Below are positions 55,766 through 58,067 of a stretch of DNA of 64,000 nucleotides, piece by piece. The notes beneath the pieces are model-generated. The model saw nothing but the letters and a program-made list of their open reading frames with translations, did no database searches and had not been told where the DNA came from. The position numbers and the translations under genes were made by a program. The stretch is from Sulfobacillus thermosulfidooxidans (GTDB taxonomy: Bacteria > Bacillota > Sulfobacillia > Sulfobacillales > Sulfobacillaceae). The number at the start of each line of letters is the position of its first letter. Position 1 is the first letter of the stretch. The stretch lies in assembly GCF_001280565.1 (NCBI RefSeq), contig NZ_LGRO01000001.1:124001-188000 (forward strand), given 5' to 3'.

Positions 55766-55780
55766 GTATAACACGCGACC

Positions 55781-55819
55781 AAGTCAAAGCGGCTAGATAA
55801 CCTCTAGCCGCTTTGACTT
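55781..55819. terminator. Long perfect hairpin between kdpC and the rhodanese gene
   Basis: A 17 bp perfect inverted repeat with a five-base loop (AAGTCAAAGCGGCTAGA on the first arm) lies between the convergent genes. It is probably a bidirectional terminator, though T-runs are short. Confidence 0.85.
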
Positions 55820-55834
55820 GAACCTGGTATACGC

Positions 55835-56455
55835 TTATGGGCGCTCTACCGGGTGCCCTCCGCCAAGCCACAATGACATTCCACCGACCACATTGGCCAC
55901 ATTGTAACCTTGTTGGGACATCCAAGCGGCGACAGATGAGCTCCGACCACCGGATGCGCATACGATAGCATAGGTCTTGTCTTTGTCGAGTTCATTGATA
56001 CGATTTTGAATTTGTCCCATGGGAATGTGCAAGGCACCAGGAATCTTGCCAGTACGCAATTCGTAAGCTTCACGGACATCGATAACTACGTACTTGTCGA
56101 GATTTTGGCGCAATTCATCGACGGTGAGATCAATGACGCGTTCGACAGGCAATTTGGCATCTTGCCATGCTTGAAGTCCTTTATCCCACGTAAATACGAC
56201 ATTTAAACCGGCCTGTTCCAAACTTTCGACTGCGGCTTGAATTACAGCCGGATTGTCGGCATAAAGGCCAATAGGAGGATTTTGGCCGTTTAAGGCTCGT
56301 TTGACCTCTTCACCCCAAGCACGGCGGTGAAACGGAAAGTTATAGGTGCCAGCTGGGTGACCCTTACTGTAAATTTGAGGCGGATTAATATCCAAAAATA
56401 GCGCCATGCCCCGTTCGACCTGAGACACAAATTCTTCGGCTGTTAAAATTGCCAT
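55835..56455 (-). CDS. Double rhodanese-domain sulfurtransferase
   Basis: A 206-residue protein with two rhodanese-like domains. The second has the active-site loop with Cys in YAIVCASGGRSSSVA near residue 168 and the FxDVREAYELRTGKIPGA-like VIDVREAYELRTGKIPGALH. The first, from residue 1 to 95, has DINPPQIYSKGHPAGTYN but no catalytic cysteine, so it is inactive or regulatory. ATG at 56455 follows AAGGAG by eight bases. A CstR/CsoR-like palindrome lies about 90 bases upstream, which suggests control by persulfides. Confidence 0.88.
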   Translation of the reverse strand: MAILTAEEFVSQVERGMALFLDINPPQIYSKGHPAGTYNFPFHRRAWGEEVKRALNGQNPPIGLYADNPAVIQAAVESLEQAGLNVVFTWDKGLQAWQDAKLPVERVIDLTVDELRQNLDKYVVIDVREAYELRTGKIPGALHIPMGQIQNRINELDKDKTYAIVCASGGRSSSVAAWMSQQGYNVANVVGGMSLWLGGGHPVERP

Positions 56456-56540
56456 GGTCGATCACTCCTTGAAAATTTGATTTGATACCCTGCCCGTGCA
56501 CAAGAAAGGGATCCGAAAGCTAGCATGAAACGGCTTACTT

Positions 56541-56601
56541 ACATTGTCACAGGGCACAATATACCTCATAGGGTATATTGTGAAGGATTTTATGACAATG
56601 T
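56541..56601 (-). promoter_or_regulatory. Nested palindrome upstream of the rhodanese gene, CstR/CsoR-like
   Basis: The inner perfect inverted repeat CACAATATACC (56555-56565) and GGTATATTGTG (56572-56582) has a six-base spacer, and an outer pair ACATTGTCA (56541-56549) and TGACAATGT (56593-56601) encloses it. On the minus strand the core reads ATACC-CTATGA-GGTAT, like operators of CsoR/CstR regulators. A TTGACA (56602-56597 read on minus) overlaps the outer arm and could be the -35 box. Confidence 0.55.
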
Positions 56602-58067
56602 CAACCATACCCTGGGACAATTTATCCTGAACTTTTTGGCCGTTCTGTCCTATGTCGTAGCATGCCCAGTTGGCTGGAAGACAATCGAAGAGAGCCGAAA
56701 TGATGCGGGCGGCATACAAACAACCCGGAGAAACATAATGCCTCTCCGAGTGACTTAGGTCTTCATCGTGAGATCGGTCTACCAGGGTGGAGGATTCGGC
56801 TACAGGAAGGCGAAGGATAGTACCTGAATGGATGTATGAGGCAATTTCTCGGCCAACAAGAGTTGAAATTGTCTACCTGCTATCTAAAAAGCGTGAGAAT
56901 CTCTTTGGACCAGGGCTTGCAGGGCACTTTGCGCCTGATGGGGGAGTGGACCAAAACAGGTATCGAAAAGTTAACGATACGGTCACGACGTCTAATGAGT
57001 CTTGCTACGTATAGGCGCTCCCGGGCAACGGTGAGGAGAATATCTTTCCACTTAGAGAGCCTGACCGATGTCATTCCGTGCCAGGAGGAGATTGCCTGTT
57101 GTGGTCCCCTTAGGCAGATGGTCGGCCGCATAACTGTCCTGCGCTCATAAAAAGATGCTAAGACTCTTCATAATCACAAGGAAAATGAGTCGGTCGATGC
57201 GTGCTCCACAATCTTATCGCGCCGAGAATCATGGCGTCATAAGTCGCGGCGGTCACCACAAAAATCCGCACAAATGCGGCGAACGTAGTGGCGTCGGCCA
57301 ATCCCAACGCTCCGATGATCCACAGTCCCACCATGATCGCCCTAAACCTAATGCCTACCAAGCGCCTTCACCATGGTCCGGGACTATGCGGTCCAATCCC
57401 TGCGACCCCGTCAATGAGTCGCGGGCCTGCTTGCGATAAAATCGTGCAGGTGGTGTCGCAGCTGTGACGGATTGGGCGTTGGCAAGGCCAGACCAAACAA
57501 CAAAACTTATAGTAACGAGCAATCTTAACTCCCTGTTTGAGGGTTAATTTCCGAAATCATTGGTTAAGATTTAATCTGCCATAAAAATCCTGTGACGGTA
57601 GATTATTCGTTGACTAATCCACTTGCTCCAAGTATCGGGGGAAGATCAGGACTCTAATCTGTTTTGATCGAGGAACTCGCTATGGGAAAAGAGTCGTTAT
57701 CCAGCTCGAACGAACCAGAACACGGAATTAAGCGGATTGACGATTTCACAAATGTTGTAGGATCGCTTCTGGTGATCCTCTGGTTCAACGATTGCACATC
57801 GCGGAGCAAAAAGAAGATGTGTAATACCCAAAAAGATGATGAAGACAAGGGAATATATTAAGAAATATCCTTAACACTTCCGCAACACATCCACGGGCAA
57901 GACGCGATTCCGCATGACAAGATGCCGAATCGAAAAGGTGTTCCGTATATACTGTTGGCAACCTTGTAACTACCCGCTTTTATGCCTGTTGTAACCCTAA
58001 GAGTCCCATTATGGTTATTAAATTCGATTTATTATTCCATTCTATGTTTTCGTCTGGAGGAATCCTC
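56602..58067. other. Gene-poor stretch with no supported coding sequence
   Basis: About 1.47 kb without a frame that I can support. Several short frames exist on both strands, most with no ribosome site. The minus-strand frame at 57158-57361 is hydrophobic and could be the tail of a lost membrane protein (for example FVRIFVVTAATYDAMILGAI). A plus-strand frame near 56836 starts like an ArsR-type helix-turn-helix (ISRPTRVEIVYLLSKK) but loses the family pattern at once. Decayed genes are the simplest reading. Confidence 0.5.

Follow-up and report, generated by a model that had tools for sequence, protein, structure and literature searches.

A conserved palindrome at a Sulfobacillus rhodanese promoter as a probable operator for a CsoR-family regulator of sulfur genes

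A rhodanese gene with a palindrome at its promoter

The window, by which we mean the whole stretch of 64,000 nucleotides analysed here, contains on its minus strand an open reading frame (55835–56455) encoding a two-domain rhodanese of 206 amino acids (PF00581, E = 4.2e-26), whose C-terminal domain has an active-site-like loop, CASGGRS. The gene is preceded on the same strand by a TTGACA −35 element (56599–56604) and, after a 16-base spacer, a CACAAT −10 element (56577–56582), which together constitute a promoter-like match (10/12). The ~1.4 kb upstream of this promoter (56600–58000) contains short open reading frames only, none of them convincing, and there is no Rfam match at E≤0.1 between 56400 and 58000. 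On the other side of the gene, a perfect 18-bp inverted repeat with a 5-base loop (55780–55820) lies between convergent stop codons; it separates the rhodanese gene from a convergent upstream operon, whose reading frames we take to be kdpA, kdpB and kdpC, and resembles a two-way terminator.

The sequences CACAATATACC (56555–56565) and GGTATATTGTG (56572–56582) are perfect reverse complements separated by the six bases TCATAG, forming an extended inner palindrome, CACAATATACC-N6-GGTATATTGTG, with perfect 11-bp arms (56555–56582), as originally predicted. Within it is the candidate core operator, ATACCCTATGAGGTAT (ATACC-N6-GGTAT; 56561–56576, minus strand), which begins directly after the rhodanese −10 element and is delimited by its conservation in the genus and by the presence of the same pattern before a DUF156 gene. 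A second pair of perfect arms, ACATTGTCA (56541–56549) and TGACAATGT (56593–56601), lies outside, and its right arm overlaps the −35 element (minus strand, 56604–56599), also as anticipated. The description of the whole as a nested palindrome needs qualifying: both pairs of arms are perfect, but their centres do not coincide (56568.5 for the inner and 56571 for the outer) and the outer part is not a conserved operator.

Perfect inverted repeats with arms of at least 11 bp and loops of at most 10 number 10 in the window, compared with 0–2 in 10 Markov simulations, and the palindrome at 56555–56582 ranks 13th of the 14 inverted repeats listed for the window. Length does not set this palindrome apart, since 11-bp inverted repeats are nothing unusual in the window; what gives it weight is comparison, through its conservation and its reappearance at related genes. 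A terminator or RNA element was considered and rejected, there being no terminator-like site within 56440–56700 and the site lying at the start of the promoter.

Conservation among Sulfobacillus rhodanese promoters

We compared eight Sulfobacillus genomes, including that of the window (G000, three contigs). The core is kept in all eight promoters of stand-alone, full-length rhodanese genes, which come from seven of the genomes, and all eight share one layout, with TTGACA exactly 22 bases before the ATACC of ATACCCTAT-N2-GGTAT. Across the genus the −10 element reads CAMAAT, and the conserved TTGACA-N16-CAMAAT directly before the core bears out the suggestion that the operator lies over a promoter; this position would cover the rhodanese transcription start site. 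The right-arm flanks of the inner palindrome vary among these promoters, and its outer part is not conserved. In one genome (G002) the full-length rhodanese gene follows a metallo-beta-lactamase-fold gene, and the site is before that gene; of two further matches in G002, one is a partial rhodanese copy with no exact site upstream and the other lies at a contig end without upstream sequence.

The same comparison bears on the outer arms, which could mark another operator overlapping the first, or a double site that loops, given that both 9-bp arms are perfect and that an outer arm of such length is reached in 32 of 20,000 shuffles of the flanks. However, the arm on the right in the gene direction, TGACAA, is found downstream of the site only in G000 and the near-identical G006, whose rhodanese proteins are identical, and is absent from the six more divergent promoters of the eight; the other arm is the −35 region. 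We find such a second site very improbable and have rejected the outer arms as operator parts because they are not conserved among the eight genus promoters; the outer left arm at 56541–56549 is probably not part of the operator.

Looking for other copies of the palindrome, as the original prediction had proposed, we found ATACC-N6-GGTAT at eight places in the window genome, compared with four for a reversed control; several are inside reading frames, and the eight include one before the rhodanese gene and one before a DUF156 gene. Taken alone, the pattern of 5-bp arms is weak. Across the eight genus genomes it occurs at 62 places, not all of which we count as operators because many are inside reading frames. 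A stricter form, ATACCCTANNNGGTAT, is present at ten places in these genomes, eight before rhodanese genes and two before the gene for a DUF156 protein of 97 residues.

A DUF156 gene with the same site at its promoter

Identification of the palindrome as a CsoR/CstR operator had been staked on the genome encoding a DUF156 protein, and two such genes are present. The product of the first, at G000:C2:483080–483370, is the 97-residue protein; it matches PF02583 at 69.5 bits against a curated cut-off of 22.8, which places it in the DUF156/CsoR-RcnR family, and its two invariant cysteines are C42 and C66. ATACC-N6-GGTAT is located 95 bp before its start codon and, among the orthologues, 92–106 bp before the start codon in all eight genus genomes; TATAAT is abutted by the site at seven of the eight orthologue promoters, and in G007 by a further GGTAT. 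The gene is unlinked from rhodanese in Sulfobacillus. An AlphaFold monomer of the protein (mean pLDDT 80.8, pTM 0.59) has a helical CsoR-like fold, and its best Foldseek matches in the PDB are InrS, CsoR, FrmR and CstR, all at E-values above 0.001; as a monomer, the model cannot place C66 relative to C42 of the neighbouring subunit. The second DUF156 protein of the window genome (G000:C1:2284691–2284927) is of the C-H-C type. Of the other DUF156 genes in the genus, the 11 examined all encode C-H-C copper-type residues, and none of them has ATACC-N6-GGTAT within 700 bp upstream.

Spacing of the candidate operator

As a yardstick we used 12 plasmid loci from the 40 matches listed (451 records), eight of them CstR-type, defined by a cysteine at +29 from the first and no histidine at +25, and four copper-type; for two of the 12, which the script pattern missed, the type was assigned by eye. 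TAC-X8-GTA is present at seven of the eight CstR-type loci, either at the operon start or in the shared intergenic region, and the CstR-type loci of S. saprophyticus, E. casseliflavus and P. polymyxa have ATACC-N6-GGTAT itself. Two copper-type loci have X9 and two have none, with X8 in none of the four; chance matches at other spacings occur in some of the plasmid loci. The type 2 sites of copper CsoR in S. lividans are reported as TAC-X9-GTA with G-tracts (PMC3902906), and TTHA1953 of Thermus thermophilus is reported to have the site TACNNTACNNNNGTANNGTA, with a TAC-X4-GTA core (PMC10318464). With its X8 spacing, the window site belongs with CstR and not with copper CsoR. If the distinction between X8 (sulfur) and X9 (copper) is upheld in a larger sample, it would permit operators to be assigned by sequence.

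These spacings speak to the possibility that the other DUF156 protein of the genome, the C-H-C copper sensor, binds the site and that rhodanese is copper-regulated. The two proteins are of the same family, and the S. lividans type 2 sites carry TAC/GTA dyads too (PMC3902906), but copper-type sites have X9, both as published and as seen here, the site is absent from the 700 bp upstream of all 11 other DUF156 genes examined in the genus, and in sister genera the operator is shared with a DUF156 protein whose second cysteine is at +24 (see below). Given the spacing and the absence of the site at copper-type genes, we regard regulation by copper CsoR as highly unlikely.

Recurrence of the site across the family

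We extended the comparison to 34 genomes of the family, in which there are 39 rhodanese matches at E≤1e-30, in 32 of the genomes. The exact site lies within 1.5 kb upstream of 33 of the 39; five of the 38 with upstream sequence have no site, and one further match is without upstream sequence. By genome, 31 of the 32 have at least one rhodanese match with the site, the exception being G023. Within the 53,109 upstream bases, arm pairs occur 39 times at a spacer of 6 and once at a spacer of 7, with none at spacers of 2–5 or 8–11 and none for the reversed control. The expectation is ~0.1 sites, from the genus density of 62 in ~31 Mb (genome sizes rounded), although the rows share ancestry and a Poisson probability computed from them should not be read at face value.

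In five genomes of two sister genera (G014, G015, G029, G030 and G031), a DUF156 gene and a divergent metallo-hydrolase/rhodanese operon have one site between them, and the protein sharing the operator there is of the +24-cysteine kind, not the copper type. The Sulfobacillus layout looks like the split operon of the sister genera, with each piece keeping its operator. Elsewhere, sites in such neighbourhoods also precede TauE-family exporters and single-domain rhodaneses. Among 47 family DUF156 homologues, the 300 bp upstream contain the exact site for 23 and lack it for 24; some of the latter are paralogues with other sites or targets. Separately, G022 (L192, G022:C55, 1–6000) has a further DUF156 paralogue with the +24 cysteine; it lacks the operator, and by visual inspection its neighbours resemble a sulfur oxidation cluster of the heterodisulfide-reductase-like kind.

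Many regulator families use palindromic operators, and an unrelated repressor (ArsR-type SqrR/BigR, MarR or TetR) might be imagined to bind the palindrome, with the DUF156 gene as a target and not the regulator. We give this little credence: the site is at the DUF156 gene's own promoter throughout the genus (8/8 genomes) and at almost half of the family homologues (23/47), and the CstR-type loci of other lineages share ATACC/TACC-N6-GGTA(T).

Cysteine arrangement and clade of the probable regulator

Typing covered the best 47 of 85 family DUF156 matches (all at E≤6e-16), together with five of the 38 weaker matches, which are copper-type. All 47 have cysteines at 0 and +24, one has a cysteine also at +29, and residue +25 is always G, S, Q or R, never histidine. 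The regulator therefore shares with CstR the lack of a histidine at +25, but has neither the CstR cysteine pair (0 and +29) nor the C-H-C ligand set of copper CsoR (0, +25 and +29); in the CstR-type plasmid proteins the second cysteine is at +29. In a gapless alignment to a solved CstR chain, C66 aligns with a glutamate that is five residues ahead of the CstR cysteine. For S. aureus CstR, an interprotomer di- or polysulfide is reported to join C31 of one subunit to C60 of its neighbour, at the +29 spacing (PMC9774590, PMC5480029). With the second cysteine displaced from the CstR position, the chemistry of sensing may be different.

A tree of 67 proteins, built on only 79 columns and with long branches, has one branch (100/99) that sets off 46 rows with the +24 cysteine and a different one (99/97) that sets off eight CstR rows, and the regulator does not group with CstR. 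A +24-cysteine profile applied to 299 genomes of the phylum at E≤1e-20, a search that probes distant homologues poorly, gave matches only in the two of these genomes that belong to the family. On its sequence, the regulator is CstR-like in its operator and putative targets but is not a CstR orthologue as judged by its cysteines and its place in the tree. The proposal of a CsoR/CstR operator is thus sustained by the DUF156 gene with its own site, the recurrence at rhodanese and the X8 spacing; it does not extend to a CstR orthologue as the regulator.

Genes associated with the site and the likely signal

Intergenic sites of the genus precede a gene for a CoA-disulfide reductase-rhodanese fusion in G001 and G003, and in G004, where the frame is broken. 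For the metallo-hydrolase, domain searches support only a hydroxyacylglutathione hydrolase/Blh-like fold, and the enzyme is a putative persulfide dioxygenase. A protein of ~345 residues (G000:C2:68420–69460; L008:1593–2633) has the operator ~80 bp upstream in six of the eight genus genomes; it has weak similarity to PRK06851 (P-loop) and no Pfam match. In sister genera, an apparent homologue of this protein follows the rhodanese operon.

What the regulator senses has to be judged from these genes and from its cysteines. Conceivably the +24-cysteine protein responds to disulfide or electrophile stress, formaldehyde or a metal, the sulfur genes being part of a thiol-stress regulon; such a signal would fit the position of the second cysteine at +24 and not +29, the presence of an uncharacterised P-loop-like protein in the genus regulon, and the reported loss of DNA binding by TTHA1953 on disulfide formation (PMC10318464). 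The sites at rhodanese, metallo-hydrolase, TauE sulfite exporter and CoA-disulfide reductase-rhodanese genes argue against it, being at gene kinds reported for CstR (PMC10318464, PMC5480029, PMC9405070), and we consider a signal other than sulfane sulfur unlikely, if worth keeping in view.

Proposed regulation and relation to known systems

We consider it very probable that the palindrome is where a small CsoR-family repressor docks to switch genes for sulfur detoxification on and off. We propose that the 97-residue repressor, probably tetrameric as its relatives are, occupies ATACC-N6-GGTAT at the beginning of the rhodanese promoter, where it would keep RNA polymerase off and block initiation. 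It would also bind its own promoter, at the site abutting or overlapping the TATAAT box, and so hold down the amount of repressor made. On a build-up of persulfides or other sulfane sulfur, C42 and C66 would react and the modified repressor would leave the DNA, allowing expression of rhodanese and other sulfur-handling genes. The site, the promoter layout, the genes that the site accompanies and the cysteine pair are read directly from sequence. We infer binding by the 97-residue protein, repression and the persulfide signal from CsoR/CstR biology, and are confident of the reading as a whole, in which the site is the operator of this DUF156 repressor, released by sulfane sulfur and controlling both rhodanese and its own gene. 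We lean, by a small measure, towards the further view that the proteins with cysteines 24 apart are a separate CsoR-family clade of persulfide sensors, with the operator and regulon of CstR and a different inter-subunit sulfur bridge. The second sensing cysteine would then have moved by more than one helical turn, and the regulon would bring the ~345-residue P-loop-like protein, together with DUF302 proteins, into sulfur handling.

Like CstR (Staphylococcus, Enterococcus, Streptococcus) and YrkD (Bacillus), the regulator is a two-cysteine DUF156 protein without the copper-ligand histidine; with CstR it also shares the operator ATACC-N6-GGTAT and the kinds of gene at which sites occur, namely rhodanese, a putative persulfide dioxygenase-like metallo-hydrolase, TauE, CoA-disulfide reductase-rhodanese and the regulator's own gene, where autoregulation is predicted. 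It differs from CstR in its second cysteine (+24 and not +29) and its separate clade, and in that the Sulfobacillus regulator gene is unlinked from rhodanese. TTHA1953 is likewise a CsoR-family protein that controls sulfur oxidation genes unlinked from it and binds DNA in a thiol-dependent manner, but its cysteines are C39 and C68 (+29) and its site is TAC-X4-GTA, according to the account of that system (PMC10318464). Copper CsoR of S. lividans and B. subtilis has in common the family and the TAC/GTA dyad, and is set apart by its C-H-C copper ligands and its TAC-X9-GTA sites with G-tracts (PMC3902906).

The operator class and the kind of regulon appear to be those known from CstR, the cysteine arrangement and clade being a variant. 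In the open-licence literature we found no description of this regulator or operator for Sulfobacillus, or of a persulfide regulator for the family; the S. thermotolerans genome paper, in its accessible text, mentions CsoR only as a copper regulator (PMC6803676). From sequence, the site defines a candidate regulon for sulfur stress in a family of acidophiles active in bioleaching, and ties uncharacterised genes to sulfane-sulfur handling. The combination of a CstR-like operator and targets with a differently placed cysteine pair offers a natural test of how the sensing site of CsoR-family proteins can change.

Other intergenic occurrences

In G000, G001 and G006 (L005, L093 and L118) an intergenic site lies between the gene for an FAD-binding dehydrogenase subunit and a divergent gene for a GAF-type sensor, and may represent another target or another regulator. 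A recurrent site in seven of the eight genus genomes was set aside, as it is just behind a strong promoter and apparently inside a transcribed structured RNA. Here, at L123:5059–5272 (G000:C1, ~3166058–3166271) and at the equivalents in six other genomes, a TTGACG-N17-TATACT promoter is followed by ~200 conserved bases, for which there is no Rfam match. This stretch has a multi-stem fold of 53 pairs, three of them with changes on both sides, and is possibly an undescribed structured RNA with its ATACC-N6-GGTAT inside the transcript.
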